A stretch of DNA of 64,000 bases from Polytrichum commune (Eukaryota > Streptophyta > Polytrichopsida > Polytrichales > Polytrichaceae). Shown here piece after piece: positions 6,801-63,692 of the stretch; positions within the stretch are counted from its first letter, which is position 1; every line of letters begins with the position of its first letter. The stretch lies in assembly GCA_950295325.1 (NCBI GenBank), contig OX485809.1:5828001-5892000 (forward strand). The letters are read 5' to 3'. Both the position numbers and the translations under genes were made by a program. The notes under the pieces were generated by a model that did no database searches, was not told the DNA's origin, and saw nothing but the letters and a program-made list of their open reading frames with translations.

Positions 6801-9800
6801 AACCCTTTATAACTTACCGGGTAGAAGGGCCCACATGAGTAGGATGGTAATGAAATAGCATTCAGTTAGAAAAGCATGGTCATACATGTCTTAACAGTGC
6901 ACCTGAAGGCCCATGACCACATAAATTTCAATCTAAATTTTCCATAGTTTCAAAGGCCCTTACAAATTTATGGTCACAGTCCTTGGCCATAGTGTAAAGT
7001 GGCTTTTTATTGCATTTGTGTTTCATGACTTGGAGATTCCAAGGTTATCACATGTAGAAAGTGAAGGCGTGGATAATACAATGAGTCGAACTTCAAGTTT
7101 GAGAAGAATTAGAAATATATGGTCAATTTTGATTTAACAGCAAGGAAATGTAGACAGAATCTCTATTCTTTAACAATTGGGTTCATGAAAAATGAAGAAT
7201 GCTCTTTGTCTCAAAGGGGGGGGGGGGTAGAAGAGAATTTTGAACAGATGAGACATCCAGATTGAAGACTTTGTTACTTTGTTTGTTGTCATTAGGTCAT
7301 CGTACATAACACTTTTAAGATTATGTGGCTTTCACTAACTCATGCACTGGGGTTTTGCAGTTGTCTGACTTTGGACTTGCAAAATGGGCCCCAATAAATG
7401 CTCCCTGCATCAAGTGTAACGATGTGGTTGGGACATTCGGGTGAAGTTCCTCCCCAACTTTAATTACTCAACTTTGAGACCAAGGTCTAAGTATCCGAGA
7501 CTGGATTAATTTTTACGATTATGATAGAAGGATGGATAGTGCTAAATCCTTATTGATTTGTAATTAACCAAAAAAAGGAAAAAAAAAGTGAATGGCAACT
7601 CTGCATCATGACTACAGACAATGCTAACTTGTTTTTATGATCATAGGTACTTGGCACCAGAATATTTCATGTATGGAAGGGTTAATGAAAAAGCCGATGT
7701 GTACTCGTTTGGGGTGGTACTGCTGGAGCTCCTTACTGGCCGACAACCAATTGATACCACACGGCCTAAAGGCCAAGAAAACCTTGTCCTCTGGGTATGT
7801 AACTTATGGTGTTGCAGCTTTACAATTGCCTCAGAATATGATTAAACCTTCTTATGAAAGCATCATTAAATGTCATCCTGTTGATCCAAGAGATATTAAT
7901 TGTTTCATTTAATGTCATCATGTTGCAACAGTGAAACTCTGGACCCTCAAAGGATTAAGGGGCTCAATGTACAGCCATATGCACAATTTCTAGGAGCTTC
8001 ACCCAGTCTGAGAAGTCATATTTTATTATACTGTTGAGTTTTGCTCTTTATTTTGTACATATGTTAATCTTATGTCAAGGAGAAAATAAAATATACTCAC
8101 ATGTGACATTGATGGTCAAAATTTTAAGCATGTAGTTGCATCCAAGGGCACTCAGGTTGTGTATTCCAGCCCAAATCGTCAGTTACATTAAGGTATACAT
8201 CTTATTTGAAAAGTGTACTAAAAGAATGGGTTAATTTAGATAGGGTCATCTTTGATACAATTGGCTTAAAGTGAAAGCGTGTAGCTCAAACACACGTTTT
8301 TGTGGATGGAGAGACCCAAATTGGGCATCTTGGATACTTAGGGGTTAGCTACTGTCAAGAATGGCAAATGGTATAATAAATTTGAGTTGAGAATGTATCC
8401 TATGTTGAAAGTCTAACACAAAAATTGTAGGTAACCTATTCTGAGCACGAGCAAGTGTTTTTACACACCACTGCAAATGCTTACTTACTTTGTATACAAC
8501 TCAAGCCTCTTTTGTTGGTTTTACTGCATTTATCACTCTGATTGTCTTGTTTGTCTGAGATTATTGACCTTGAGATAATTTGATCACAGGCACGACCCCT
8601 TCTGGAGGAAAGAAATATTGAGACTTTAATCGACCCCCGCCTTGAGGGCAAATATGATGTGAATGAACTCAAGAGTATGATGCTGGCAGCTGCCCTATGC
8701 ATCCGCCATTCTGCCCATCGCAGACCACACATGAGTCGGGTACATTTTTCAACTTTATAAATAGATAAACTCTCGAACTATGAGATAAATTGCCCACTTT
8801 TCTGGATGTTGTAGATACTGTCAAAGTTTGAAAGATGGTATTAGAGTTATTAATAGTCTCCAGGTAAAAATCTAAGTGAGTTGGCATAAAGCTTGAATTT
8901 GAGAGCTTATGTACAAAGTGACCCAACTTCCAAGTTTTATTAAGGCTTATTCTAACATGCTAAAAGAGTGGAGCCAAATTATAAAATAACCAGCTTTCTA
9001 TCTTGTCATACTAGGATCAGTGGGTCAAGCTAGCCGATCTAGGATTTAGGATTTAGGATGGGTAGCTCAGACCTTATTTTAGATCCTAGAGTTTTCTTAA
9101 AGTCTTTTGAATTTGAACTCCGACTAGCTTCACCCATGTTTCAAATTTAGTCCTAGAAGATGCTCTAAGAAGCTTTTAATCTAAATTAGTCCTTCAAAGA
9201 GGCACTACACTAAACATACCAATTAGTAAGGGTGGTATTAATTCAAGTCACACACACAATCTAGCCAAATCTCAAAGTTACCAAGGGCCGAAGTTAATAA
9301 ATTCATGACTATAATAAATTCTATGCTCAACTACTATAGACAAGAAAATAAAATAGTGCGTGGTTGTGCTTAGTGCATGCCACATGCTTATTAATGGATA
9401 ATGCCAAGTGCCGATACGTTTAGTAATTAGTGCCAAGTGTTGGTACTTAAGTGAATACTGCCAAGTGTAGGTACTTTCATGCCAAGTGCCAATACTTTAA
9501 GTGAATAGTGCCAAGTACAGAGATGAACATTGCTTCCTAGTCTTAGATCTAAGATCTTTTGGTGACACTAATTGATAGCGTAAAGGGTTTAATATCACTT
9601 TCACTAATTTCCTATCCTCAATAATTTGCACCCTCAATGATTACCCACTCACTAATTGGTATATTTATCGCAGTGACCAAACTCCTTGTTTGGTCCCTCG
9701 TTGAGAGACTTTACATATAACTCTATTAACAAAAGCTTTTGTTTCTAATGGTGCCTATCCACAGTTTGAGCAACTTATCTAGAAATTTCTGCTAACTGTT

Positions 9801-10164
9801 GGTGAAATCATGACCAAAGCTGCACAGAAAAATATTTATTAGTGTACCCTGGCAGGTCCTCAAAATATTGTCAGGAGAGGGTGAGAACCTCGGGTATTGG
9901 CCACGGCAGGAACTTACCAACAAGTCCATGGACATGGACGAAAATGCCAACAATAACAATGTGGTGGATGGGACTGCCGATTACGGTGACACAGACATTC
10001 AAACACATTTGGCCCTTGCAATGCTTGGAGTGGATGATAATGATGGCGGGGATGATGAATCAAACTTCAATGACCAAAGTGGTGTCCTTGAGGCACACTC
10101 AAACACATACCTTGAGGAGTATCTCGAGGGTCGGATCAGTCGATCCACAAGTTTCAACAGTTGA
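824..10164 (+). CDS. USP-domain protein kinase, receptor-like cytoplasmic kinase class VI (RLCK VI_B type)
   Basis: Exons: 824-1184, 2468-2565, 2871-2989, 3275-3429, 3674-4720, 5274-5525, 6329-6489, 7361-7440, 7647-7794, 8590-8739, 9856-10164; total 2880 nt, 959 aa, all GT-AG with matching phases. Residues about 82-240 form an adenine-nucleotide alpha-hydrolase/universal stress protein domain ([37 protein letters not shown]). Residues 245-575 are a Ser/Arg-rich linker. The kinase domain follows: glycine loop [15 protein letters not shown] Lys619, HRDVKASN with catalytic Asp716, DFG Asp734, LAPEYF. It is an RD kinase and all catalytic residues seen are intact. The tail is acidic and Asn/Asp-rich. 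No signal peptide or membrane segment is visible, so a cytoplasmic Ser/Thr kinase is expected. The family is plant-specific; some members bind Rho-type ROP GTPases, but the partner here is unknown. The start is the first ATG in frame with the USP domain; a further 5' non-coding exon is possible. Confidence 0.93.
1311..2040. repeat. Eight-unit minisatellite in kinase intron 1
   Basis: The word AAGAAACTGGGCTATGGG or a close variant recurs at about 1311, 1427, 1511, 1618, 1727, 1811, 1920 and 2022. Spacings alternate between about 84 and 102-116 bp. Each unit also holds a 'CCGGAGATTACTGTCGGAGT' word. Units are clearly diverged. The array lies wholly within intron 1 (1185-2467), although some frames through it stay open and could be mistaken for coding. 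Confidence 0.85.
2585..2850. repeat. Three tandem ~95-bp units in kinase intron 2
   Basis: The word CATGATGTCA recurs near 2591, 2684 and 2780. Each copy is followed by 'GTGCTCAACATATGAATGTG' or a variant and then 'GAGCTGATGTTG'. The array fills almost all of intron 2 (2566-2870) and stops about 20 bp before the splice acceptor. Confidence 0.8.
5670..6200 (+). repeat. 5S rRNA-like dispersed repeat in kinase intron 6 (candidate Cassandra-type or 5S-derived short element)
   Basis: Two stretches resemble plant 5S rRNA: about 5687-5735 (CCGGATTCCATGGGAAGT onward, like the CCGGATCCCATC region) and about 5960-5995 (AGTGCTTGGATGGGTGACCT, close to the 5S box C AGTACTAGGATGGGTGACCT). The following tail, about 6000-6200, is shared with sequences near 33500-33715 and 53755-53945, so this is a dispersed repeat and not a functional 5S gene. 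Cassandra elements (small non-coding LTR retroelements) are known to carry 5S sequence in their LTRs; a 5S-derived SINE is the alternative. It looks old and broken. I could not define its ends. Confidence 0.5.
8855..9740 (+). repeat. Dispersed repeat family B, copy 1 (split), kinase intron 10
   Basis: The stretch 8855-9205 matches 41755-42045 and 43315-43760, with shared words such as GAGTTGGCATAAA, GAGAGCTTATG, AAGGCTTA, CAACATGCTAAAAGAG, TAGGATCAGTGGGTCAAGCT and TCAGACCTTATT. The family 3' part (CTCCTTGTTTGGTCCCTC...GAGAGACTTT) reappears only at about 9665-9740. The 460 bp between them, including the short tandem array near 9401-9520, therefore looks like later insertion or expansion. No coding potential is seen. 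Confidence 0.7.
9401..9520. repeat. Short tandem array in kinase intron 10
   Basis: A unit of roughly 28-36 bp built on 'AGTGCCAAGTGTTGGTACTT' repeats about four times with spacing differences. It sits in the stretch that interrupts the dispersed family B copy. Confidence 0.65.
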
Positions 10165-12774
10165 TCAAATGCATTGCCACAATATATAAGAGAAAAGCCC
10201 CTGCCTGAAGACTCTCCACTCTTTAAAGCAGATAGTCTACAGGCAGAAGCTTTTCACTTTATGAAATCTGGCAAGGCCTGATTGGTCAAGAAAGGGCTTT
10301 TCACGTGCATTTGTCAAAGGGGGAGTTTAGAAATAGGTAATTACAAAAGTTTGTGTAACATATGCCCTGGTAATTTCATCCAGGAGCAGCAGAAATCTGT
10401 CACATCCGGCCATCCCCATCCAAAAAAGGCCAGGGAAAGAGCTGGAGCTAGCTCAGGTGGGTAAGATTTTGCATATTGGCTACTTGGTAATTTGAATGCA
10501 GCATCTTAAGTCAACAGGAAGAAATAACTGCGCTGTTGTGTTGATACATGAAATCAATCTGGTCCCAAGCTTTACCTGTACACTGAAGCAATTGCTTACA
10601 CATACCTTCTTGCTTCATTATCAATTGATAATACTTCCATCAACATGGCTACAATTGCTAGAAGTGAGGAGAGGAGAGATGGTGCCAATTTTGCCATCAG
10701 TGTGCATTATGGTGTTGCTCCTTTTTTGAGTTGGTCTAAGATTACCTGTAATCTTGAAATGGGCATCACAAGTATTAAAGGGCCTCCAAAGACAATTGCC
10801 TCCTTTCAAAGGCAACCATCTTGAAATGGGCACAGACAAGCCGGTATGCACCTTTCTCTTGCAAGGTAAGCCCCTAAGTTGATTAAAAATATCCAGTTCA
10901 CTCATATTCTCCCACTATGATTGGGTGAACCATAGACAAAAGGGTGCACCAAAGATGAAATGCTAGGAAGTCACCATGTAAACACTATTCGCCTTATGGG
11001 CTGAACCTCATGGTTACCATGGGATCTAGGTTCGAGACTTCGGTTTAAGCTACCCATGAACAAGTGATGTGTGAATTGAACTACAACTTCACTACACTAT
11101 TTATGGTGTTTAGTGTCACATGCATAATGGTGTCACTCACCCTATTTTGAGGCATATGCTAGGTTACATTGATGATTAACAACTTCATCATGAGTGTCAT
11201 CTCATGACACTTGGCATACAATTGCCTTTACAAATATCTTGGCATGAGCATGTTCAATAGTGTTATGAGGTGCATGCCTATGCTACACAATGGTTTACAA
11301 GTTGATTAAAGTGTATATAAATGACACTTGCCACTAGTATGTCCAAGAATAACTTCCTCTTGCATACTAAAATGTAAACACATGACACTTGTCATTAGTA
11401 CTCTCAAAAATATAATCCCCTTGCATACCAAAACACAAGACTATCATCTAACGTATCCCAATGTGCTACTCTAATCGTCATAATGTAGATATTTTTTCCC
11501 TTGAAGAAGTTACTTATGTTGACGAATGGAATCATATTGACAATTAGCGGTCATGACACTTTGAGACCTCTAGGCATCTAGTTTGGGCCCTTCACAAATA
11601 GTGTGTGACACTAAATACCATAAAGGGTGTACACTTATTCTGGTAAATATTATGGGCACATTTATAATGTGACTTACCATGGACGCCCTTGTAGTGTGAC
11701 CCACACAATACATCATCACATTAAAATAATGTGCAACCCTTGTTATGCTTGTCATGCCCTTGTGACATACCCACCTCTTGCCCTCAAGTTGGAAGTCTTT
11801 CAAGTGCACTTCATTTTCAATCCAATAGAAATGACGTAACCTACGACATGGACCTCTAATGTGATATTGTGGGTTGGTAAACAGCAATATCCTCAATGTT
11901 TTTAGAGTGTGAGAGTAATCTCAACAATGTGGCCCACAGTATTTAACGTAATTGGTGTAGTCCTGGTAATGCCCCATGACTGCTAGCACTGGTACTAATG
12001 GGCACAAAGTGGGATAATAATTGTTTACTCAGCTCCTGGCATGCAGATTCATGATTGGTAATATTTGTGCATACCGGGAGAAAGTGATAACCTGCACACC
12101 TATTTGATAACACCAAATAAACACCATGTCAAATTGAAATCTGTATCCTTTCAAGGAGAATATTACAAATATTGCATTGCGCTTATGACATAATTTGTCT
12201 TCAGAGCCCATGATATTCTGGAACTTCAGAGCCAAATAGCACCAGCAAAACTGCACCAACCTCCTGGTTAGACAAAATTTGCCAATCATCAGAACAGCTA
12301 TCTCAATTTTGGAAAACTCGAAATATCCATCTCACAGATATTGCAACTCGATCCAGAATGAACAACCCTTCAAGCAATACTTCAACATGGAAACAAGTTC
12401 AAGATGAAATTACAGAGACTTGAAGAAGCTTGAGAATATGTTAAGTTGTTATGGGGATATAACTTACAGAATTGTTCTGTTACTTCTGGCAGTAAACTTA
12501 AAATGTCATTGCATGAAGTCACCATGTAAAATAAGGTCTAACTAAACTACATCTTCAGCAATCCAACACATCGTTGCCATTACAATATGTCTCAAGAAAA
12601 CAATCTTCAACAACCCACAACAACAATGTTGAGTGTGAGAAAATCCTTCCAAGTAACCTCACAGCCTGACCACAGTCACTGTACAAGAAAACTTCTCGTC
12701 GACGTGTTACAAACAACATCAAGTCTCCAATCCCCATATAAGAATAACTAGATACATTACAGGTAGATGTTTGA
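10165..12774. other. Intergenic region between convergent kinase and DNA glycosylase genes
   Basis: The kinase stop is at 10162-10164 and the glycosylase stop, on the other strand, at 12775-12777, so this 2.6 kb holds two 3' ends. Two short open stretches flanked by splice-like signals (about 10382-10456 and 10790-10866) could not be tied to a gene. A probable inverted-repeat element sits at 11093-11632. No other gene is supported. Confidence 0.6.
11093..11632. mobile_element. Possible miniature inverted-repeat element, ~540 bp
   Basis: The left edge reads TACACTATTTATGGTGTTTA followed by GTGTCACA. The reverse complement of the right edge (about 11604-11632) reads TACACCCTTTATGGTATTTA followed by GTGTCACA. 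This gives inverted ends of about 28 bp with few mismatches. I found no clear target duplication and no transposase, so the class is unknown. Confidence 0.45.
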
Positions 12775-15351
12775 TTAGCTTGTATTCATTTTTAGGGGTA
12801 CTAAAGTAGACCTAGGTGCACTAATCCAAGGAGTTCCAGCAATGGCAAAACGCCATGGTGCAGCCACATCTTGAGGTGCTGCATACTCAATCCCTACCCT
12901 TGGTCCCGCAAGTATTGCCCCTGGTGGTGGGCCATCCAAAAGTTCCAAACCACCTATCACCATTTAGGGATACAAAGAAGAACTAATTCAGTGAATCAAT
13001 CATTAAGAGAGTGAAATAACAGAAAACCAAGAATAACATTTTATCTATCCAAGAAGATGCTTATTGTGAGCATGCTGTAAGGTTAAGAGAACCTAAAATG
13101 GGCACTTTTAGATCTTCGCCTACTTATCCTAGGATAATAAACACACAATTCGTACAAGATGAATAGCAAATCCAAATAGACGCCATAGCCATTTTCCTTG
13201 TCATTAATATTTGAATGGTTAAGGATTGATCATGTAGTCCAACCCCTTTAAAACAAATGTCTTTTCGATGTCTGTTCAGTACAGATAGGAAGCTCACCAG
13301 GTAGATAAAGTGGATGGCATGACCATTCAGTTGTTAAACCCAAAGCCTGGCCAACCTTCCAAAAAACAAGGAAAATCACCAACCTTTAGAAGGCTCCTGT
13401 GATGCACTGTGCTTGTATTCTAGTTACTAGTGAACATCTATTTAAAACCCAAGTCAAGGAAGTGAGAAAAATAATATTGAGTTTAAAGTGCCAGTTGCTA
13501 TGGTTTACCTTGCCTGGTCCATTGAGAAGCAACGGTTTAACTGCACTCTGTTTCCGACGAAGTTGAATTGTTGCCAAACCTGTGCACATCCCAGGTTTAT
13601 TATTTATTTGCATATTTGAACTACCTCAAAAATAGATTGTAGGAAACAAAAAATACCAGAACAATTGGAGTCTGAAGCCTCACAAAGTATGAAGATCATT
13701 TCATCCTAACTCGACAGCTGTTCCAAATTGTGGATTTAGTCGGACTAGAAACATATAGGTAGTAGTATTCAATATATATATATTACAGATATTTATATAT
13801 TTACCATGCACAGGTGAACAAGCTCGGATGAGTACAGCGGCACCCACACCCGCCTTATCGGCCACCACATTAAGCATGATGTTAATGCCGTAACACAAAT
13901 ACACATACGCATGACCACCTGCTTGAAACTGCACCACTCAAACATTTTCTGTCAACATGGTGAAATTCATGAGCTTATTTTCGAAACAATGAATGACTTT
14001 GAACCATGCCTATGATTGGAACTCAAGAGATGAGATTGTTCAAGAAAGCAACATGTGGAGGAGTCCAACAACGTAAAAACATTGCAAGTATGGATGGAAG
14101 TGCCAAATTTTACACAAAGAGATGTACCATGGCTTCTGTTCGAGCAGTTTGGCCAAATCGCCCATGGCACGCTGTGTCTTCTGGTCTGTACGCCTCCACC
14201 TGGTTACAAAATACATATGACAACACCAGTTGATGTGGTGGTCAGGCCAAGCTATTTTGCTACTGTGTCTATTCTTGATTGGATGAGGAGGCAACATGAC
14301 CACCCGTAATTGATGACCCTACCATGGTCTGACCACTACGGCCGGCAATGAGCACATGTTGCCTGCCAGCTATCAGGGGCTGAAGTAAGCACCCATTAAC
14401 TAGTTCATAATGACGTCGAATGATACTCCTACCAACAAAATTGCACTCAGGAATGAACACTCCCCCCAACTGACAATGTGCTAGTGCAATGTGCTTGCCA
14501 GAACCTGCCCTTAAAGACATATTAGCATACCCTACACCATTGACCAGATGTTGCAACATGGTATTGGAAGAAGACGATATCTGTCCACTGGTCTCAACTA
14601 TTTGAAGAGAAGGTGAGATCACAACCTACCTCTGTGATCTGCAATATGACATCATCTCGTCGCAACAGCTTCCCAAGAAGACGAGGAGCCAAGTCTAGAG
14701 CATCGCACGAGTAGAAGTCTGCACCCAATTGCGTGTACTTCTCTTCGTGTAATGAGTGCGTGACGACAGTCGTCACGTGTTTATCAACATGTTTGATCTT
14801 CTTTGTGCCCTCAGCAGGTTCCTCATCTCCTTCTGAAACTGGTAAAACACTGAAACATAAGCTAAACCACACAACAAAATCCATCATCCAAAAGACCTTT
14901 ACAAAGGAAAATTTAAATACAGACTTCCCTATTGACAAATAAAAAAAGAGGCATGGGTACTCCAGTTTCTGTAATCAGCAAGACTGACATCTTATGTGCT
15001 ACCTATATCACAGGTTTTTGTCTTAGTGTGACAAGTTAATGGCTCCATATGGCACCTACTTGAGACATGAGATGTTTTCGTGGCACCTGAATTACCGACA
15101 CATTTTTGTTCACAGGGAAATTTTATAGATCAAATTACATCTTAAAATAAATGGGGTGATACTCCACCTGCCTTTTTCTTGTATGAAACTGCTACCTTTT
15201 TCTGCACGATCTGCCCTGCCGCAGACTTCCTTGCAAAATAGGGCGAGGTCACTCTCAATGAGGCAGCTTTCTTGGCAGATTTCTCCAGTGCTCGTGAAGA
15301 CCGCCGCCGCGACCCCTGAGGATTTTCAAACTTTCCTTCACTCGACTCCAT
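12775..15351 (-). CDS. MAG: DNA-3-methyladenine glycosylase (alkyladenine DNA glycosylase, AAG/MPG family)
   Basis: Exons in coding order: 15351-15168, 14832-14630, 14199-14128, 13928-13805, 13579-13509, 13355-13298, 12953-12775; 891 nt, 296 aa, all GT-AG with consistent phases. The enzyme cuts alkylated purines such as 3-methyladenine from DNA by N-glycosyl hydrolysis, starting base-excision repair in the nucleus. Residues about 1-75 are basic and Ser/Lys/Arg-rich (GSRRRSSRALEKSAKKAA), suggesting nuclear targeting. The core starts at DFYSCDALDLAPRLLGKLL. The active site ITEVEAYRPEDTACHGRFG gives Glu131 as the water-activating residue, by analogy with human Glu125. The DNA-binding HAYVYLCYGINIMLNVV and the C-terminal GPRVGIEY and WRFAIAGTPWIS motifs are present. 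Length is close to plant homologues and nothing essential is missing. The 72-nt third exon is easily overlooked. Confidence 0.94.
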
Positions 15352-18300
15352 TTGATCTTCGTTGTTGCAACTCTGAAACTGTATGCAAAGGTATTTGAAA
15401 TTTGCAAGTATTTTCTGCTAGTTTAGTCCAATCAGGATGGTTTATGATGACCACTCCTGGATCTCAGCCTCCGTCGAGTTGAATGTGACCTTTATTCTCA
15501 ATTCACAAAACAGAACTGCTTCACAATAGGACTCAACGTGAGAATTTGAAATAAAAAATTTGCTGTGATTCAAATAGCAAACCTCATTCAATTCACCTTT
15601 CAATTTGCCACATTAACCCATAAAAATCAGCATCATCGTGTAAACAACAATCCGACTGACTGGACTCACAAACTGATGAAGCCCCAAAACCCCAAAACCC
15701 TATAAACCAGACAACAAATCTTTCAACACAAGAAACTTTCGGGAAACTTTCAACACAGGAGCAAAACAACAACAACAACAACAAACAATACCTGAGTTAC
15801 TCCACACCCAGTTTTTAGAAAATGTCAACGACACGAACAATACTCTCTTTGTGCAGATCTGTGCATGAAATCAAGTGAATAACACCAGCACATAATTTAC
15901 AAGGTTATCCCTCAACAAACAGATTGCCTCTCTCTTCCTCGGAACTGAAACACTTCAATGCGTCATGCTTTGCTCATCTCACTTCATACAACATCATCAT
16001 CACAAGGTGCAACGAATGTACTTACATTCAAGTAGAAGCTTTGTCAACATGCGTAGCTTAATGAAGACTCAATTGAGTCGCCTGATTCCAGAAGCTAAGT
16101 TGCCAGGAGAATGAATGCCAAACCACAGAGTAAGTTGGCCACTTAATGATGTGATCCTCACTCTCTTCAAGAACAAGTTTAGGGTGGTGAGTGCACCTAT
16201 TGAGGTACTACTGAGGCCTTAAAAGCGACACTTTGAGAAACTTTTGCTATTCAGGCAGTTTAAATAGCCTGGACATTTTTCAAAAAAAAAATCCATAGAT
16301 TAGCAAACCTATAAATAGTATACCAAAAAAGTTCAAAAAGTAATAAATTCATGTGCAACCTATAGAAATTCGCAAATTCGTCTTAAGGAACAAGCCTTTT
16401 ACTCTTCATTAGGGGGGTTTATTGGTGTTGGATTGCTAGGTGAGAATCATCACAAAATCAATCTTATTGCAGATGAAGATCTTCTATTAAATGAAAGTGT
16501 TGTTGCTTTTTGCATTGGTCATTATTATTAGCTCCACTTAACATGTCAAAAGACAAAGGGCCAAGACCTTCGGCCCATCACTTGACAAATCACTCCTAAA
16601 ATGCCCATCACTTGACATATGAAATTTCAAAACACATGTTAACATCTTATCATTAGGAATTGTCAATGTAGTAAGCTTGGAACTCAGTGCATCCACCTTT
16701 GCAACCGCTTTCGAAGGTTATAACTTACCGAGCTCACATTTCAAGTGTCTTTACCCACTATCCAACGATAAATGGGTTAAATTTCCAATCATTGTTGACT
16801 TAATAGCATTTCTCTATATTTGAAGCATAGATAGATTTCGGTGTCAATTTTTAAGAAACACTCAGCAATGAAGGAGTTTTTTCCCTATGCAAGCTCACAA
16901 GTGTATTTTTCCAATTTCCACAAAGTATCGATAATAGAGGTCACTGACAACTACATAATAAAAGTGATTTAATTGCAAATTGTTTCAATTTGTACTATTT
17001 CTCTATGTTGTCATGATTAAAAAAGAAATAGAAATAAGCAAGAGTTTACAAAAGCCTTCAATTTGAAAAATTAGGTGTCAATATACATGTTGAAATTTGA
17101 CCAACCTGTCAAAAAACTGGTCATGTAAAAATCGGCCATCGCATGAAAGGTTGGATCCTTTGTAAGAAATCAACACCTTAGGATAGATCCCCAATTAGCC
17201 ATTGTTAGCACTTCATGAGGCATAGAGAACAACCATTGATGAACTATTATGATCGAGCATTTAGAGGTGTTAGACTATTCAATTTATGTTTGTGGAGGGG
17301 AAATATTTGCAAACAAATAAGTAATAATGAGCTAGAATAAATCGTTTGAGATTGACAATCCCATTTTGAGACAAGTTTGTACGTTGTAAATGTAACTACA
17401 CTTATTTTGGTATGTGACCTTTGTTGAACACCATATATTAGGATATATGGAAACTTAGCATTATGTAACATGGCCTCCAAAACATTGAATCCAAGTGGAG
17501 GCATAGCATGAAAAAATAAGAAAAAATAGATGTTGCTTAGGTGCAACGTGAATGGGGGTTGCATTATAGCATGACCTATATGCAGACATGCCGTAATAAT
17601 TTGTGAGTGTATCTTATTTTAACTTAATTTTATAAAGAGCCTATTTATTTGAGCTCCTTGTTAAGAAGTACACTCCCCTAGCTAATAATTCTCTTTGGCT
17701 ATATAATTGTGTAATTTTTGGGCCTACGGTTCCCTGCAATAGAAAACCTGAAATCCGATGCAAACAATCAGTTGAAGGACAAAGCATGTTAAGTTTGAAT
17801 GACGGGAAAGACGAGATTGCGTATATAAGTAGCTCATTGTGACTAAGACAAACGAGTGGAGGCTCCACATAGGTAGGACCACGCATTTGACAAATTTAAA
17901 CTTCAATAAACTACATAAAAGAACATCATACGCAAGTGTAGCATGTCAATTGTGGTCCCACATTAGATCACAATCACGAGGTTTTAGGCAAGGCCATCAC
18001 ATGCTATTCAAAAAAACACTCTATCTCATGCAAAAGGTAGGCCCTGACCTGGATGGGTAGCACATCAAATTGATGCCCTTGTATAATAATTATAGGATTT
18101 TCTTTATTATTTATAAATTTGATAAATATTTGGGATACGATTTAGATATTTTGAGTCGCATGCTTCTGAATTGGGCCACTTTGAGACACCAATCCAACAA
18201 GATAATTGGCACCTAAATTAGATTAGTGTAAATACCCAAACTCACCAAAGTGTTGGGAATAGGTGTCACTACCTTGAATTAATGTAGATGGGGATGGCTC

Positions 18301-53945: not shown

Positions 53946-54884
53946 TAGACTTAGACCAACTCAAAGACGAAGCAACACCATGATTCACGCCGATGGAAAC
54001 ATAAGAGTCGTCTTCCTTTTTCTTTTTTTCTTCTTACCTTTCCATGGCCAAGTAATGGCATTGTGGAGCGGCTCATGGTAGCATGGAGATGCTCTGAGGA
54101 ACTGCATGCCCAATCATGACATCTCCACACACAAAAACTCGTACTATGAGCACATACTTCCATTGTATGCTAATTGTGTCAAAATGATTTCATTCTTCAC
54201 AGGCAATTTTAAATCAATTGCCCAACCTTACTGTTATTGGAAAATTGGTTCAAGTACACAACTAAGGGGCCCTTAGAGAATGCATGCATAGTATTTCGAT
54301 CATCAATGTCACACATACATTATACATTACAGTTTTCTCCTTGACATAAGATGAAATTATGAAACAAAGTTCCACACCCATAAATCAATAAGTAAAAGAT
54401 TTAGGGGATTACTATTTCCACACCTTTTTTGGCTAGATTCACACCTTTTTGCCGGTTCAGTTGCCGTGTCACTGAGGCGCTATATATGAGATTCTTCATG
54501 GTGCATCCGGACCGTTGATCCACCAAGGCCCATCCAAGGGCCTCAATGATCCTAGGTGGCGGCGGGGTGGGGCCGTGGGCCTCATGTCTTTTTTGGGGAG
54601 GCCGGATTTAGGGTGGTGTCGGGCCTAGTGGCTAGGCTGGCCCAATGGCTAGGCCTACTTATTATATAACTAGTTGGTTAGCCTTACTCTACTTACTAAG
54701 GTGAATCTAGTTTGTAGTGTGAATCTAGTTGGTAGAAGTTGGGGACATGAAAAATGAACCAAATTAACAACCACATACCTTAGAGTCTAGCCCTCTCCAA
54801 TACTTTATCGCATCAAAACCTTGTCCCGGAATTGATGGGAACTTGTACCCGTTAATGTAGATGTGTCTTAAATGGTTAATTTTC

Positions 54885-55045
54885 AAACTAGCCTACTTAT
54901 GGCGTGATATGAAACAAGTAGGTTAGTACGAGATGGTTAGCAAATCCAAATCAAAATTTAGGAGCTCATATGAATATCTTAGTCATTATCAAAGTGAAGA
55001 TTATGGTGTCAATAATGATCATATAGGTGTCCATACCTAACTTCA
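54885..55045 (-). repeat. Dispersed repeat family C, copy 5 (inverted, inside the outer element's left arm)
   Basis: Read on the minus strand it contains CATATGAGCTCCTAAATTTT, GATTTGGATTTGCTAACCAT and GTTTCATATCACGCC. It is part of the DNA between the outer left TIR and the Harbinger insertion point. Confidence 0.65.
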
Positions 55046-56452
55046 AGACTTGCACATATACCACTCAAATATACATGTCCAATTAAGAAGAGTGACCAAT
55101 TAGTAAGTAGAGTAATGCCCCTTCCTCACCTGGCTCTAGCTAAGACCGAGTCTTAGCGCTAAGACCCGCCTTTAGTTCTACTAGGCTGCACTGTGAGGCC
55201 CGGTAAGCCCGGACAGTCCGGACCCTAATACCCGGACCGGTCTTAGGGGTTGCTATTACCCTCCTTCTTCACCAGACGCTAAAAGTGAGCCCGTTAATCT
55301 GTGTTTTTTGTCGTCGCCTCCTGTAACGGCCATCCAACTGCCATTCACGCGAACGGCAGTATCAACGCCAACGGGCGTCTCAATTGATGCTGCAGGAGGA
55401 GGTAAATGCTGAGCACAGAACCGAAATTGGGATCGCACAACAGGGTTTCGGCAGACTGTGTGTTTTCTGTTGCGTTTGTTGTAGGATCGCTGTCTACTCT
55501 GCACAGATCTCCGAAAACCGCTGCTTGCAGGAAGAGCTGCGAGGTTGTGAGCTCTGTTGAGTGCTTACGGTGATACACCGAACTCTGAACAAACACCGAA
55601 CTTTGAATGATAGTCCGAACTCTGTAGATACTTGAACTCCCACAATAGCTCACTGCAGGCTCACCTGCTCTCCCCGCACAACACAAATCCTCTCAAATCC
55701 TCTCAAATCCTCCTGCTGCCACAGAAGTTGTCACTGTTCCTCACCAATCCTTAGAGGTAGCCAGGTGAAGAGTGCCTGCCACTCTCTCCCCAGCGCAATC
55801 CGTAGAGGTAGCCAGGTCGCACTCTCTCCCCAGCGCACAAGGAAGGCACACTGCACCGTCACTCTCTGCAGCCGCGAGGTCAGATTCGGCGACCCTCTGC
55901 ACCGACTTGCGAGGTCTGACGGTGCGTTGAAGGCCTGTGGTGACCCCGGTGATCTGTGCGACGCGCTGCCCCCTCCGACCTCTCTGTGCAGATGCCGAGG
56001 TCGTGGGCTGCAACTCCGGTAATCTGTTGAGGTCAGTCACCTCCGACCTTAGAGAACCCTGCCCCTCTTGCTATTCAACAAATCAACCCAGGACAGACTC
56101 AACGACCCTGTGGAACCCTTGGCCTGCTCAGCTGAGCAGCTCCAGCAACAGCCAGGATTGTGAGCCCGAGTTAGCAATCAGGTATATGCATCTCAATTGG
56201 CCTTGCCCATTCACAGTCTTAAATTGGCCATCAAGGTGGACACACAATGGGCTGTGCTTTTTTACTAGAATTTGTGGAAGGAAAGATGATTATGGGGCAT
56301 TCACATTTGTGTTTATTTAGGGTGTATAAAAGTGGTTTCCATGCATGGGTGTGGTCAACATTAGGACATGGAGGAAGGTGATACCTCAATGAAACATTAA
56401 AAAAATTTGTGTCAATTCTCATATTTGTTGTGGTCAATTTGTTGGTACAGGA

Positions 56453-57805
56453 ATGGATGGATTCAATGATCCCACTGATCTCCTTTCCATTGTATCCGCA
56501 TTACTCATGATCCTTCTTAATGCCCACAATGTTCTAGTTGAGGCCTCTATCCCTATAGAAGCTTCTACACAAGAGGAATTGAGTGTGCATATGGAGGAGG
56601 GTGTGAGACACATGGATAACATGTACTCTACTTCAATAGCCGCATTGTACTCCTTTCAACTATGGAACAACCTTCTTCTAGTGGATCATGAACTAGGGTA
56701 TTGGGTGAAGGCACGGTCTACCACATGGTTTTCCCAGTTTGTGATTGACGAGTATGACGATGACCGATGGTCATCTTTGTTTCGCATGACCAAAGCCTCT
56801 GTTTTTGAGCTCTCAAACCAACTCGCACCTTTAATACAAAAACAAAATACTAAATACCGACTTGCAATTCCCGTTGTTGTACGTGTTGCATGTACGTTAC
56901 TAAAGTTAGCACATGCAACTAATACAAGATTGTGTTCCGAATTGTTTGCGATTGGCATGTCAACTGTGTCAAATGTAATACACGATACATGTCGTGCTAT
57001 TAACATTGCATTACGTCATGAAATTACTTGGCCCACTGGAAACCGTCTTCTTCAAGTTCAAAATGATTTTAAGGTATTATGTGGATTGCCCGCCGTAGGT
57101 GGTGCAATAGATGGTACGCATATCCATATTTCAAAACCTAGGGTAGGCCCCGAGGATTACTTTTATTTCAAAACTCATGGTTAGACATTGAATTGTCAAG
57201 CCGTAGTAGATAGTAGGAAGGTTTTTTTAGATTTGTTTTTAGGCATGCCCGGTTCTACCAATGATGCTAGGATGCTCCGACGCTCTAGCCTTTATCAACT
57301 TGCTATGAGAGGGGAACTATTTCCTCCATCCCTAGGTAGAGAAGGTTTTCCACCTTATCTTTTAGGTGACTCGGGCTACCCAAATTTACCTTGGTTAGTG
57401 ACTCCCCACCGTGGTAATAACCTCACAATGTTAGAGGCCCTCTATAATAGGAAACTACGTAGGGGTAGGGGGGTTGTGGAAAATGCCTTTGGCATTTTGA
57501 AAATGACTTGGCGGGAACTCCTAGGAAAATCCGAACTTAATGTTGTTTATATGCCCGATGTTATTACCGCATGTGCTATATTACACAATATCCTAAGAAA
57601 ACAAGCCAATGAAGATTTGGAGGCCTTGGGCGCTATGGTGAATAATGGAGGAGTGGAAGATGCCGATGACGATGCATATTCGGACACCGAAACATATAAT
57701 GTTTGTGATGATGAAGGACCCCAAAGTAGGATTACAAATGATGGAGATGATCTTCGACATTGTTTGGCTTCTTATATAGGATCCCAAAGTGGAGTTCAAC
57801 CATGA
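56453..57805 (+). pseudogene. PIF/Harbinger DDE transposase with one in-frame stop
   Basis: One continuous frame of 450 codons plus stop, broken by a single TAG at 57182-57184 (codon 244). Upstream is a helical, HTH-like region (VVVRVACTLLKLAHATNTR, FAIGMSTVSNVIHDTCRA). The DDE triad is complete: Asp220 in GGAIDGTHIHI, Asp306 in LLGDSGYP and Glu343 in GVVENAFGILK. Other family motifs are LNCQAVVDS, LGMPGSTNDARMLRRS and ACAILHNIL. The amber falls just after FKTHG, where relatives usually have an aromatic residue (FKTGGY-type), so a Tyr-to-amber change is likely. The tail is acidic. The ATG at 56453 follows an AG, so an upstream exon is possible. AATAAA lies at 57869-57874. Without readthrough the product would have only one catalytic Asp. 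Confidence 0.9.
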
Positions 57806-58454
57806 TCTAAGTAAAATTTAGTTAGAATTTAGTATGTGATTTTCAATTATAAATGCTTATGATTTTTCAATAAAACTATATATTTGGTGGGAGTTCGTTG
57901 GCAATCTAGTATTTCATGTTTTCATAATTGTCAATCCACAGAAATCATCACTATGTTTGTTAATCAAAGACATTTTATTGTCTTAAATTAATATATGGAC
58001 CACAACTACATGGTGTTGTTTGGGTCTAAACCCCTAAACCATCTTCATCACAGTGTTTAATTGTGTTCTTCATATGAGCACCCACTTCCAAGTATTAGTA
58101 TTGACAACATTTTCCAATATCTATGTGATTTTATCCATGTGTTATATTTCTAAATGTCTCCAATTGTGAGGGAATCCTAAATTAACAAATATAGTGATAT
58201 TTATTGCATTCTTTTACATCTCGGTGACCTTCTAAATGACTATGGAATTGTTTAGTACATGTGATCTTTATCCTTATTGACACCCTTCATATTTGTCAAC
58301 TTGAATGCATTCAATATGCATTGTTTGGGTCGTAGCCTTTTACTTGCCTTTTTTTACCGGGAGCGGTAACCCTAACCAAATTCGAGGGTTCAACCAATAA
58401 CAAAAATTCTTTTCATTTCCATTTCTGTGTGTCACCAATTATTAATGCGTGCTT

Positions 58455-59215
58455 GAACATAACATTTTGTTTATCGTATTTTACACTGGAGCAAAAATGT
58501 CTTCAATTACCATAGGTCAATCCTCATTCCAAAACTATTGTCCTTTCCATTCATGTGTTGGTCTTTGTTTCATCGGATCCAAGTACACCCAATATATCCC
58601 TCCGGATAAATAATCCATTCATATCCGACACCAATTCATAATATGCTTCACATATTAACACCAAAATGTGGCCCCAATGTCTTCACATTGGGGAACAAAG
58701 TTTTGTATTGGGTGTCTATTATCACTATATCGATTAATTTTGGCCTTTTTATGCATTTTGAGACAAAACCAATATGAAAACTTAGATAAAATCACATACA
58801 GTCCACCCTCTATAAATGTTACACCTATAAGTGTTAATCCTCTCTAAATGTTAACTTTCTTCTACTCCCCACATATAGCACACTATAAATGTTAAACGTG
58901 GTAACATTTAACAAAATGGTACTCCCTTCTTTGTGAATAGAACTCTATAAAAGTTATGAATGAAATACAACCTTATATGGATGAAAAAAACTACACATCC
59001 AGTTACACATATAGTTTTGGACCCAATAGAATGTACATGGAATCACGTTCATGTGATGTGGAGAAGTATGTGGGTTTGTTGGTGCACATTGAGAAGTATT
59101 TCCAAGTTGTGCATGAAAATGAATTTACCAAAGTTCCATTGATTCATACTTCACCCGTGATTTGTAAACTTGATGGGTTTAAGGTAGGGATTGGGTTTTC
59201 AATTTTATGAATGGT
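58455..59215. repeat. Segmental duplication inside the Harbinger, left copy
   Basis: Matches about 59703-60447 at an offset near 1248 bp. Shared words include TTTTGTTTATC, TCTTCACATTGGGG, TTTTGTATTGGGTGTCT, CATCCAGTTACACAT and CATGGAATCACGTTCATGTG. The duplicated segment begins in Harbinger DNA and runs into the pogo-like element. Confidence 0.85.
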
Positions 59216-59373
59216 ATTTTGTCACAAGTACTCTTCATAATTGCTTATATTTATAAATTTTAAGATTTGTAAATTGCTCACAAAAGTAATATCCATTTTG
59301 TAAATTGTTAACACCTCTATAAATGTTAACTTTGATCCACTCCCAAGGGTTAACCTTTATAGGGAGTACACTA
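58799..59373. mobile_element. pogo/Lemi-like Tc1-mariner element, 575 bp, inside the Harbinger
   Basis: The left end is CAGTCCACCCTCTATAAATG; the reverse complement of the right end is TAGTGTACTCCCTATAAAGG, 14 of 20 matching. TA flanks both sides (58797-58798 and 59374-59375). The CAGT...CCTCTATAAAT start resembles plant Emigrant/Lemi pogo-like elements. An 84-codon frame (58956-59210) has no recognisable domain, so I regard the element as non-autonomous. Confidence 0.6.
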
Positions 59374-59702
59374 TAGATATTGGAGAATGTGCTAAGATGC
59401 AAACACTTTAAAGCGGGTGTCCATATGAAGGACCTAACTCATGTCAAAACGGTTATGTAGGTACCCCAATAACATTGGACCATGTTGTTATATCCATACA
59501 TGATATGAAATAAGAGGAAGTCTCAACTTATGGAATATATGATATTGGCAAATTTATTTTCTTAATTTGTTGTTGTGTTGGAATATGCCGGCACCCTTAG
59601 GTACCATATAACTGACAAGTTTATAATGTGAAATGAACAATAATGAAACCCACCATATAGACATTGTCCCATTATGATTATGACAAGTACAATCCATATA
59701 GA

Positions 59703-60447
59703 AGTGAAACCTTTTGTTTATCATGTTTTATCCGGAGCAGAAATGTCTGCAATTACCAAAGTTTAATTCTCATTCCAAAACTTTTTTCCTTTCCATTCAT
59801 CTGTATAGGTCTTTGAACGCATGACACCCAAGTACCAACCAAGTACACCCAATCTATCCCCTTTATAAATAATCCATTCGTATCCGAGACCTATTCATAA
59901 TATGCTTCACATATTAACACCAAAATGGGGCCCCAATGTCTTCACATTGGGGTACAAAGTTTTGTATTGGGTGTCTTTTATCACTATATCGCGTTAATTT
60001 GGGGTTGGGTTATGCATTTTGAGACAAAACAAATATGAGAACATAGATAAAATCACATACTGTCCCCCCTCTATAAATGTTACACCTAAATGTTAATCCT
60101 CTCTAAATGATAATTTTCGGGTACTCCCCACATATTGCATGCACACTATAAATGTTAAACCTGGTAATTGTTAACAAAATAGTACTCCCTTCTTTGTGAA
60201 TAGAACTCTATAAAAGGTAACGAATGAATTACAACCATAACATGGATGAAAAAACTACACATCCAGTTACACATGTAGTTTTGGACCCATTAGAAGGTAC
60301 ATGGAATCACGTTCATGTGATGTGCAAAAGTATGTGGGTTTGTTGGTGCACATTGAAAAATATTTGGAAGTTGTGCATCACAATGAATCTCGCCAAAGAA
60401 CCATTCATTCACAATTCACCCGTGATTTATAAACTTGATATTCAATA
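59703..60447. repeat. Segmental duplication inside the Harbinger, right copy
   Basis: Second copy of 58455-59215. It includes the pogo-like left end at about 60060 (CTGTCCCCCCTCTATAAATG) but stops before a right end, so the pogo-like sequence here arose by duplication, not a second insertion. Confidence 0.85.
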
Positions 60448-60540
60448 AAGTAGGAATACATGATATTTGCAAAAAAAAATTTAATATTCATAATGTGCTT
60501 GAACAAAAACTAATGAGGCCACCCTATAGGAACACAAAAT

Positions 60541-61932
60541 CTAAGATTTCTCATTAGTAGGTTCCGGAGTAGATTCCTTCCGGGGAGGATCTACGTGGCC
60601 CCTCAAACCTAATGATAATACACTAGAAATATTTGCTAGTGCTAAAACTATTTCTCCTTGCTTTAGAATTGCAAGTCGGGCATTTTCCGCCGCAAGTAAG
60701 CTTTGTTCGTATACACGCATGTCGCGTTCGCGTTGGTAAGTCATTTGCTCCGAAAATAACTTAAGTTGTACCTCTAACTTGTTAGATTCCGCTTCTTTAG
60801 TCATTGATGCCATTCCCTTCATTTGACTCGCAATCGCCTCCCCGGAAGCTTTAGCAACCTCCACCAATGCCAATATCCCTCCGGAAGATTTTCTTCTAAT
60901 CGCGGTATTGGCGATTTTCCTTTTGGCAATGGAATGGCTAGAGTCGGATAAAAGAACGGTACTCCCTCTTAATGGAGGGGTCATCCCGTATAATGGAGTA
61001 CCATTAGGGACACCTATTCCACCTAAAGGGTTGGGCCCTTGACGGGATAATGAGGGGGGATGTACCGTACTAAAGGGGGATCCATCCAACGGGTCACAAT
61101 CCGTTGGATGTGCATGGTTAACATTAGAAGTACAATCCAACCCTTCCACATTTGTCTCGTTAACACTAAGGTCCACTACCTCAACATTATCATCAACATT
61201 ATCAAAACCCCCACGTTGAAATACCTCATCGTGGGGATTTAATAAATCCCGAAGATGAGGGGGTTGGATTTGAGGCCGCCGCCCAAACCAATCATGAAGT
61301 CTAACATAAATGTCCTTAGGAAATGCTCTAGGTAATTTCTCAATAGTTAATTCATTAGGAGTTAGGAGCCAATAGTCTTCGTCGTTAATGCCGGTGTGCG
61401 CATGATAATCCACAACTTTGCGGTAGTCAGGTAAGATAAGATGCCACTTACCCTTACATGCCATACCGTCTCGGAAATGTGTAGAAAAACCCGAGGCCGT
61501 AATTTTTTCCGAGATGCGGGTCCACTTCGTGACCTCGGAATCCATGAGGTCACGCCCATCAATTGCATCGAGCTCTTCTAGAAATTCGTCACGTTTAGCG
61601 TCCACAAGTGCTATCATTTCGTTTAGGCTCCAATTAGGACGCCTATCCCGACGTGCCTTTTGGGATGACTCCCCTTGCGAATCCAAGGTGGATGGCCGCT
61701 TGCCTCGACTACGTCCGGGAGAGGGCACTGGACCATGTTGTAGACGCGCCACACCTACAAAGAAAATGAAACTTTTAATAACCACAAACACTTACCCAAA
61801 GAAAAATTCAAAATGAACAATTGAAAAAATGATTGTATGGCTTTTCTCACCAGGATGGCTTGAACTCCTCAAGGGAGCATTGGGGCTGGAGGGCACTCCG
61901 CCGAAAGTCCACCCAGAGATGGGGGCTGCCAT
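60541..61932 (-). CDS. Harbinger-associated Myb/SANT-like DNA-binding protein (ORF1)
   Basis: Two exons in coding order: 61932-61851 and 61754-60541; 1296 nt, 431 aa, GT-AG, phase 1. The start MAAPISGWTFGGVPSSP joins to VARLQHGPVPSPGRSRGKRP across the intron. A basic stretch (SQKARRDRRPNW) leads into a Myb/SANT-like (trihelix) domain at roughly residues 60-150, with tryptophans in NWSLNEMIALVD, KWTRISEKI and CKGKWHLILPDYRKVVDY. Downstream are a low-complexity middle and a coiled-coil-like, Glu/Lys/Gln-rich C-terminal part (QMTYQRERDMRVYEQSLLAAE). In Harbingers this partner binds DNA and helps the transposase enter the nucleus and recognise ends. The frame is open throughout. Upstream non-coding exons may lie toward 62100. 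Confidence 0.82.
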
Positions 61933-63692
61933 ACTAGTGAGATTGGGGGGGCCGAGTTGAGGAATTCCTCTACCTGAGGCAAAAAAGCAAGGAGTTTGTG
62001 AGGATAAGGTGGAATAATGCAAACATTCAAATTTTAAAAGCGCCTGAAATGTGACAATCTGCCTCCCATGAATGCTTACCTGTGGCAGCAATAGAGACTG
62101 TGAGACTCAAAGGCCGCAAAATTGGGTTGCCGGAATGTGTGCTAAGACTCGGGAGGAGGTTCAGCAGAGAACCACTGAAGCTCCGGAGAGCAAGTATTGA
62201 AGAAGACCATTACCACACCTGTGGCAGGCTGCAGCTTCTGTGTGCCTCAATGGCCATAAAGACCTCCGAAAGAAATGTGGCACCGAGCGCAGGCGGAAGA
62301 GGGTGTGAGCCGAAATGGCCAGAACACATTTCCAGCTGAAATGTGCGAGCTGTGGCAGGCGACCGAGTATGTGTGGAATAATGCCGAAAAAGAATCTCCT
62401 GCAGAAATGTGTGACCTGAAGAAGGCAACCGAGTCTGTGAGCCGAAGTGCCGACCAAGAATTTCCTGCAGACTCTGTGACCTGTTCTGTGGTCTGTGATC
62501 AAATGAGCTAAAAAAATCTAGCAGAAATCTAAGCTGTGCGAGGAGGAGGCTACTGAATTCTGTGCTGAGGAGGAGGCTACTGAAATCTGTGCTGAGGAGG
62601 AGGCGACTGAAATCTGTGCAAGGAGGAGGCGACTGAAATCTGTGCTGTGCGAGGAGGAGGCGACTGAAATCCTAAATGTGACCGAAGATTGCAGGCTCCG
62701 AACTGTGGACTGCGGGGAGGAGCGATTGCGGAGTAGCATTGGGTATAGTTCGAAAATAAGTGAATTATGATTGAAAGATCACTCTTATGAAGGAGGGCAC
62801 AGTTAGCAGCTCTGCCGAAAATTTCCGTTGGGTGGCGACCGTTCATCGCGGGTTCTGTGAGAGAGGGGGATCGGTGGGAGCTTCTTGCGGTGAAGTCGTT
62901 AGTGTTCAAATTATGGGTAGCGGCGAGGTAGGCGCGGCATTCAGCTGGCCTTGAGTGAGCCTGTGGGCATGAAGCCAGGTGAGGATCTAACTGCCGTTAC
63001 AGGCATCCGCAAAGGGCGGTCTAACGGCCCCTCGCACTTCGTCGGGCATTACCGGTAATCTGTACCGCAACTGCGAAATAGTTAAGACTTTGTTGTGGCC
63101 AATCCGCTGGCGTGAACGCTCGAGCTTACTGAAGCTAAAATCCCTCCGGGGTGTTAGCTCCATCCCAAAAACCCGGCAGTAGAACTGGAGCTTCGGCACT
63201 AACTGTGCCCTCCGAACCGGTATGCCAGCTCAGCTGGGGCCTAAAACCTTCGTAGGTGGAGAAGCACGGTTTTAAGTCCCGACTTTTATCCTAAAACCGC
63301 ACCCACTAATGCCAGGTGAGGAAGGGGTATAAGGCTAACCAACTAGTTATTTAGTAAGTAGAGTAAGGGTAACCAACTAGTTATATAATAAGTAGGCCTA
63401 GCCACTGGGCCCGCCTAGCCACTAGGCCCGACACCACCCTAAATCCGGCCTCCCCAAAAAAGACATGAGGCCCACGGCCCCCCCCCCCCGCCTTGGTGGC
63501 AAGCACCACCCCCACCCCCCACCCCGCCGCCACCTAGGATCATTGAGGCCCTTGGATGGACCTTGGTGGATCAACGATCCGGATGCACCATGAAGAATCT
63601 CATATATAGCGCCTCAGTGCACGGCAACCGAACCGGCAAAAAGGTGTGAATCTAACCAAAAAAGGTGTGGAAATAGCAATCCCCAAGATTTA

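Follow-up and report, generated by a model that had tools for sequence, protein, structure and literature searches.

A probable non-autonomous foldback-type Mutator-like element with 8-bp target duplications, split by a nested Harbinger, in Polytrichum commune

The transposon family reported here is best compared with published Mutator-like elements (MULEs), for which target site duplications (TSDs) of 8–11 bp are given (PMC6446971). In the parts of the published accounts used here, MuTAnT/AutoMuTAnT of Medicago truncatula resembles it in comprising small foldback elements with GGGG ends and AT-rich targets (PMC4486113), Muta1 of Aedes aegypti in its long terminal inverted repeat (TIR), variable subterminal tandem repeats ('type2 Foldback') and duplications of 8 or 9 bp (PMC5225508), and Abermu of barley in its 5'-GGG...CCC-3' ends and TA-rich targets (PMC9168764); nested insertions are reported in maize and rice MULEs (PMC3903597), and gSaTar and Tm1 are the subjects of PMC5907723 and PMC3169594, respectively. 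The locus described here lies in a 64,000-nucleotide stretch of Polytrichum commune (C7:5828001-5892000, in a genome of 408 Mb in 64 contigs; hereafter the window), and consists of an outer long-TIR element at 54404–63684 that is interrupted by a PIF/Harbinger transposon. We consider the outer element very likely to be a foldback-type, non-autonomous MULE served by a transposase, probably of the Jittery/FAR1 type, from a few larger relatives; the Harbinger inserted into it later.

An earlier note, made from the letters of the window alone, had described a long-TIR element with these ends and a perfect 8-bp duplication, shrinking to about 1.07 kb once the Harbinger is removed, and each of these features can be read directly in the sequence. 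The element starts with GGGGATTACTATTTCCACACC at 54404 and finishes with GGTGTGGAAATAGCAATCCCC at 63684, and both ends abut the 8-bp TSD AAGATTTA, at 54396–54403 on the left and 63685–63692 on the right. The left TIR (54404–54699, forward strand, 296 bp), which carries one unit of a 34-bp array at its inner end, and the right TIR (63351–63684, reverse strand, 334 bp) share 97.3% identity over 295 aligned bases; the right arm exceeds the left by 38 bp, in what appears by eye to be a C-rich stretch. Between the left TIR and the Harbinger lies a non-autonomous interior (54700–55112) with parts common to other copies: blocks of it recur in the copies L050, L058, L022, L048 and L037 and in others, and a 42-bp block is found at many places of the family. 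On the other side of the Harbinger, 63333–63350 is the remainder of the 34-bp array unit that was hit by the insertion. Without the Harbinger and one TAA, the outer element measures 1,064 bp.

The outer element belongs to a large family. Allowing up to three mismatches, its terminal 29-mer occurs at 302 genomic sites (149 forward and 153 reverse), compared with none for a reversed-pattern control, and among the terminal variants GGGGATTGATATTTCC is present at 38 sites and GGGGATCNCTATTTCC at 128; one genome-wide search scored 40 of 470 first-look candidates. The 28 distinct copies for which both ends could be paired extend from 219 bp to 9.3 kb (the window copy), with a median of 1,144 bp, and all except two are 0.2–2.4 kb long. 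Their arms measure 96 bp at the shortest and at least 570 bp at the longest (at a search depth of 600 bp), and elsewhere, in copies with long arrays, arms reach about 1,030 bp. Most arms contain the 34-bp tandem unit in variable number, with 0–11 units counted per arm in these 28 copies and about 15 per arm in one copy analyzed with Tandem Repeats Finder; such variable arrays within the arms constitute a foldback architecture. As a rough estimate, based on about 150 end pairs and the median of 1.1 kb, the family accounts for at most ∼0.1% of the genome.

An 8-bp duplication is the rule in the copies assessed. Both flanks are readable in 35 copies (the 28 paired copies, six others, and one more), while eleven further places, where the sequence obtained covered a single end, were left out. 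The TSD is perfect at 8 bp in 26 copies, has one mismatch in eight and two in one (C1:44834555, mismatched at 2 of 8 positions), and none of the 35 has an exact duplication of more than 8 bp; randomly paired left and right flanks, by comparison, match in 0.8% of pairs (34 copies). The perfect TSDs are 93% A+T, compared to 72% in the flanks, with T in the first position in 21 of 26 and A in the second in 23. A (TA)4 or longer run is found within 30 bp of just two of the 28 paired copies, and there is therefore no microsatellite targeting of the MuTAnT type. The outcome that would have refuted the earlier note, other copies lacking 8–9-bp duplications or having different ends, was looked for in these 35 copies and did not arise. 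The duplication falls inside the range given above for MULEs, and the arms of the family are long with G as the outermost base, a feature of Mutator-like elements.

The Mutator-like class, at which the earlier note had guessed, is supported by a MULE transposase gene found within two elements that share the family ends and have perfect 8-bp duplications. First, it is present in a 22.6-kb copy (C4:25982832-26005438, TSD AAAATGTA), where it matches the MULE domain PF10551 (E = 8e-23) and the ZSWIM1/3 RNaseH-like domain (4e-8) in Pfam, with D, D, CxxH and E motifs, identified by eye, starting at 216, 273, 297 and 388 of a 404-residue frame, and a C-terminal CCHC knuckle, also seen by eye; among solved structures the MULE piece has no match at E ≤ 0.1. 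Between the last frame of this gene and the inner edge of the right arm there are about 20 bp. Secondly, and as the strongest piece of evidence, C1:49787497-49790257 is a compact element of 2,761 bp with family ends, the TSD TATATGAA, and the MULE gene between its arms. No foreign insert was recognised in it, the middle 1 kb being judged by the gene match rather than by direct reading; that match runs from end to end, with 348 codons in 1,044 bp and no stop. The gene block common to the C1 and C4 copies stops at the stop codon, 20–60 bp from family sequence, and by eye has no terminal repeats of its own. A genome-wide search with the gene, in which all 34 candidates were scored, gave four matches, three of them at 92% identity or more and the fourth at 36%, and two of the three close copies are those in the C1 and C4 elements. 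On the features tested (domain, TSD length and long TIRs) the family is thus a MULE, and it is of foldback type by its 34-bp arrays; a Jittery grouping, with which the weak FAR1 match, the CCHC knuckle and the 8-bp TSD fit, is probable.

Several observations weigh against this reading. The FAR1 match of the MULE gene is weak (E = 0.001–0.01, under the cut-off), and its C-terminal piece has no Pfam match. All three close gene copies look damaged: the C4 frame is broken by a 1.5-kb insert, the C1 gene is without about 310 bp of its C-terminal part, and the C2 gene has a TGA and a 3' part that matches just to position 227 of 694. Near the third copy (C2:56927588) there is no exact family end among the matches listed, and the 1.3 kb read on its 5' side consists of other sequence without a family end. 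At C1:30749639-30749986 the 5' region of the gene has a 76% relative, with no MULE match there and no family end nearby among the matches listed. The gene–arm junctions differ between C1 and C4, and the duplication usual in the plant MULE families compared, as far as the published accounts go, is 9 or 10 bp (PMC4486113, PMC5907723, PMC9168764).

Some of these points raise the alternative that the family is Mutator-like, but that the MULE gene in it was captured or came in from a different MULE family, and that the real source element is lost or unsequenced. Differing junctions are compatible with such a capture, although they are also expected of rearranged derivatives; the lack of a family end seen near the C2 copy is a further point in its favor, as is the presence of unrelated transposons nested in other copies of the family. 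However, two of the three close gene copies are found inside a family that covers so small a share of the genome, the common block, which finishes with the stop codon, has no terminal repeats, and the TSD of the compact C1 copy shows that it moved in one piece. We therefore regard capture as unlikely, and prefer the reading in which the gene belongs to the family.

Less likely still is that the family is a hAT family moved by a hAT transposase. hAT elements also make 8-bp duplications, a 2,291-bp copy contains a fragment that matches PF05699 (hAT dimerisation, E = 1.2e-7), and the 22.6-kb copy has frames matching PF25431 (above the cut-off) and PF14291 (just under it), which we take to be hAT-like. 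The PF05699 fragment was rejected as a dispersed repeat, with at least 150 matches (150 of 1517 candidates scored), of which a handful among the matches listed lie, by eye, in or right beside family ends (e.g. C1:6463829, C1:29718657, C1:6727264 and C2:57768107); we note that the fragment itself (L050:2830-3513, C1:6463829-6464512) has dozens of copies at 92–97% identity. The compact C1 copy lacks the hAT-like frames of the 22.6-kb copy, and these frames lie near the edge (at about 5572 of the 22.6-kb stretch) of a high-copy repeat, to which they may belong; no hAT ends were found in the 22.6-kb copy. The family ends, which extend over hundreds of bases from a GGGG start, are unlike those of hAT elements, which are short and start with C/TA. 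No hAT transposase native to the element was found in the copies read. That the locus is a composite of unrelated repeats whose arms and duplication are alike by chance is refuted to near certainty by the 302 ends against none in the control and the 26 perfect duplications in 35 copies.

A transposase found between the ends of a repeat is often a later arrival, and four kinds were set aside here before a likely one was reached. In addition to the hAT fragment, the first of these is a Pong-like transposase matching PF04827 (E = 1.9e-86) in a 5.64-kb copy (C5:40097211-40102849, TSD TTTTTTTA). This element is foreign, because its own ends, GAGCATCCGCAGCC, are each flanked by TAA and lie within the 34-bp array; it also has a partner open reading frame (ORF) with a weak NAM-associated match (PF14303, under the cut-off), and its closest relative (C4:56670244, 97%) has the same left end and another flank in the 1.6 kb read there. 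The Pong-like element (C5:40097656-40102307) and the Harbinger of the window are the two TAA-targeting insertions seen, and both are in the 34-bp array. The C1:44834555 copy holds a frame that by eye resembles the Pong-like partner ORF.

A further candidate was a gene set in the copy at C3:14021629-14033884, which is 12.3 kb long and has one mismatch between its flanks; it was set aside because its left end AGCGACGCTATCTTGTGAGCGG is common to three others with unrelated flanks. This AGCGACGCTATCTTGTGAGCGG transposon (L069:564-2792, reverse strand, and L070:103-3896, forward strand, within C3:14022100-14033400) encodes what by eye is a DDE/SWIM-looking protein, and on the opposite strand has frames with a GNHR motif, presumably reminiscent of ParB-like folds; seven pieces of it have no Pfam match at E ≤ 1, and NCBIfam matches are sub-threshold. 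A piece of it has at least 106 genome matches (106 scored of 2656 candidates), and it seems to be a very large family. The last candidate is a CACTA element in the 22.6-kb copy (5937–16177 of that stretch, TSD ACC; identified from its ends, and its genes by eye), which is secondary because its site is uninterrupted in the gene copies of C1 and C2. The same copy contains three other inserts: one of about 1.13 kb (16.3–17.5 kb) flanked by the 9-bp repeats CGCGCAACG, one of about 1.5 kb (18.7–20.2 kb) bounded by CAGCA and CAACA, and a third, of about 0.89 kb, within the right arm.

The inner element of the window is an 8,214-bp PIF/Harbinger (55116–63329, forward strand) with 19-bp TIRs differing at one position, flanked by TAA at 55113–55115 and 63330–63332, a 3-bp duplication of the TWA type. 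Its transposase frame (56393–57805, forward strand) is interrupted by one in-frame TAG (57182–57184), and the DDE_Tnp_4 match (PF13359, E = 1.2e-23) is confined to the second half of the frame, with no Pfam match in the first half; the partner is a 416-residue Myb/SANT-like ORF (60541–61791, reverse strand) with a match to PF13837 (E = 7.4e-4) under the curated cut-off. The left edge is independently supported, because the first 0.78 kb (55115–55892) recurs at four other genomic places at 93–99% identity (e.g. C2:849038), all starting at the same base (query position 26, i.e. 55115). These four places, with just the first 0.78 kb, are possibly short non-autonomous relatives. At the insertion point other members of the outer family align straight across, e.g. 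the L050 copy over 848 aligned bases, thereby representing the empty site. Since the TAA-flanked Harbinger sits inside and other copies align across its site, the outer element is the older and the Harbinger inserted later, and the clean nesting of an 8-bp duplication outside and TAA inside, as first proposed from the window, is borne out. Two other structures lie within the Harbinger: a direct duplication of ∼0.7 kb between its two genes (58461–59174 and 59708–60439, with blocks 87–95% identical and about 1,250–1,265 bp apart), and, in its right part, a tandem array of ∼27-bp units of type GAGGAGGAGGCGACTGAAATCTGTGC (62531–62678).

A simple explanation for these patterns is that a few larger copies made a MULE transposase, probably one of the Jittery/FAR1 type, and that this would have bound the long inverted ends, perhaps via the 34-bp arrays, excising elements by a cut-and-paste process. 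Insertion at an AT-rich site with an 8-bp stagger would then give the 8-bp duplication, and short copies without the gene would have moved in trans; a PIF/Harbinger later inserted into a 34-bp subterminal repeat of the window copy, duplicating TAA. The trans mobilisation suggested in the earlier note fits with the short length of nearly all paired copies and with the presence of the gene at three places, the movement itself being what we infer from these. Likewise, we infer that the product of the MULE gene moved the family, with the ends and arrays as its putative binding sites. The search for a larger relative with the same ends, also suggested there, yielded the two elements with the MULE gene, neither of which looks intact, and the source copies look to have been inactivated, partly by nested transposons. 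We offer more tentatively, and with considerable doubt, a broader idea: that the family is a distinct MULE lineage which cuts AT-rich, TA-led targets with a stagger of strictly 8 bp, and whose 34-bp arrays would both bind the transposase and be favored landing sites of TAA-targeting PIF/Harbinger and Pong elements, thus helping to turn its copies into transposon nests. Independently of this idea, an unclassified long-TIR repeat can be assigned to a Mutator-type family, with its duplications measured and a candidate proposed as the source of its transposase. Its many short copies can now be annotated and tested for activity, and it provides a clear 8-bp case in a superfamily for which 9 bp is often the length given in plants.

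A full-text literature search with pieces of the terminal sequence matched 24 papers, and none of the 20 titles listed concerns transposons, a weak test of the suggestion that the family is undescribed. The nearest end sequence found is that of MuTAnT, with a TIR mask of GGGGTTTGCTAGAACA compared to GGGGATTGCTATTTCC here, and the Jittery-like transposase described in one larger relative of MuTAnT is probably a further likeness (PMC4486113). However, MuTAnT elements are described with 9-nucleotide duplications, (TA)n microsatellite targets, and 90% of copies at 200–300 bp (PMC4486113), whereas the family here has 8-bp duplications, (TA)4 or longer beside two of 28 copies, a median of 1.1 kb, and the 34-bp array in its arms; by TSD length and target it is not a MuTAnT. 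For the Jittery dicot/monocot subgroup, the tabulated features are an 8-bp TSD, an N-terminal FAR1 domain, a C-terminal SWIM or CCHC, and TIRs of 39–292 bp (PMC6446971, Table 1); the TSD is the same here, but the FAR1 match is weak, the CCHC is identified by eye, and the arms are longer in copies with long arrays. A further likeness of Muta1 is that the non-autonomous copies derived from it, over 300 in number, have heterogeneous interiors, but its subterminal repeat is 12 bp, it has no target preference and its host is a mosquito (PMC5225508), compared with a 34-bp repeat, duplications of at most 8 bp, and AT-rich targets here. Abermu differs in that 267 of 278 duplications are 9 bp and ten are 8 bp, and in being larger than 8 kb with three ORFs (PMC9168764).

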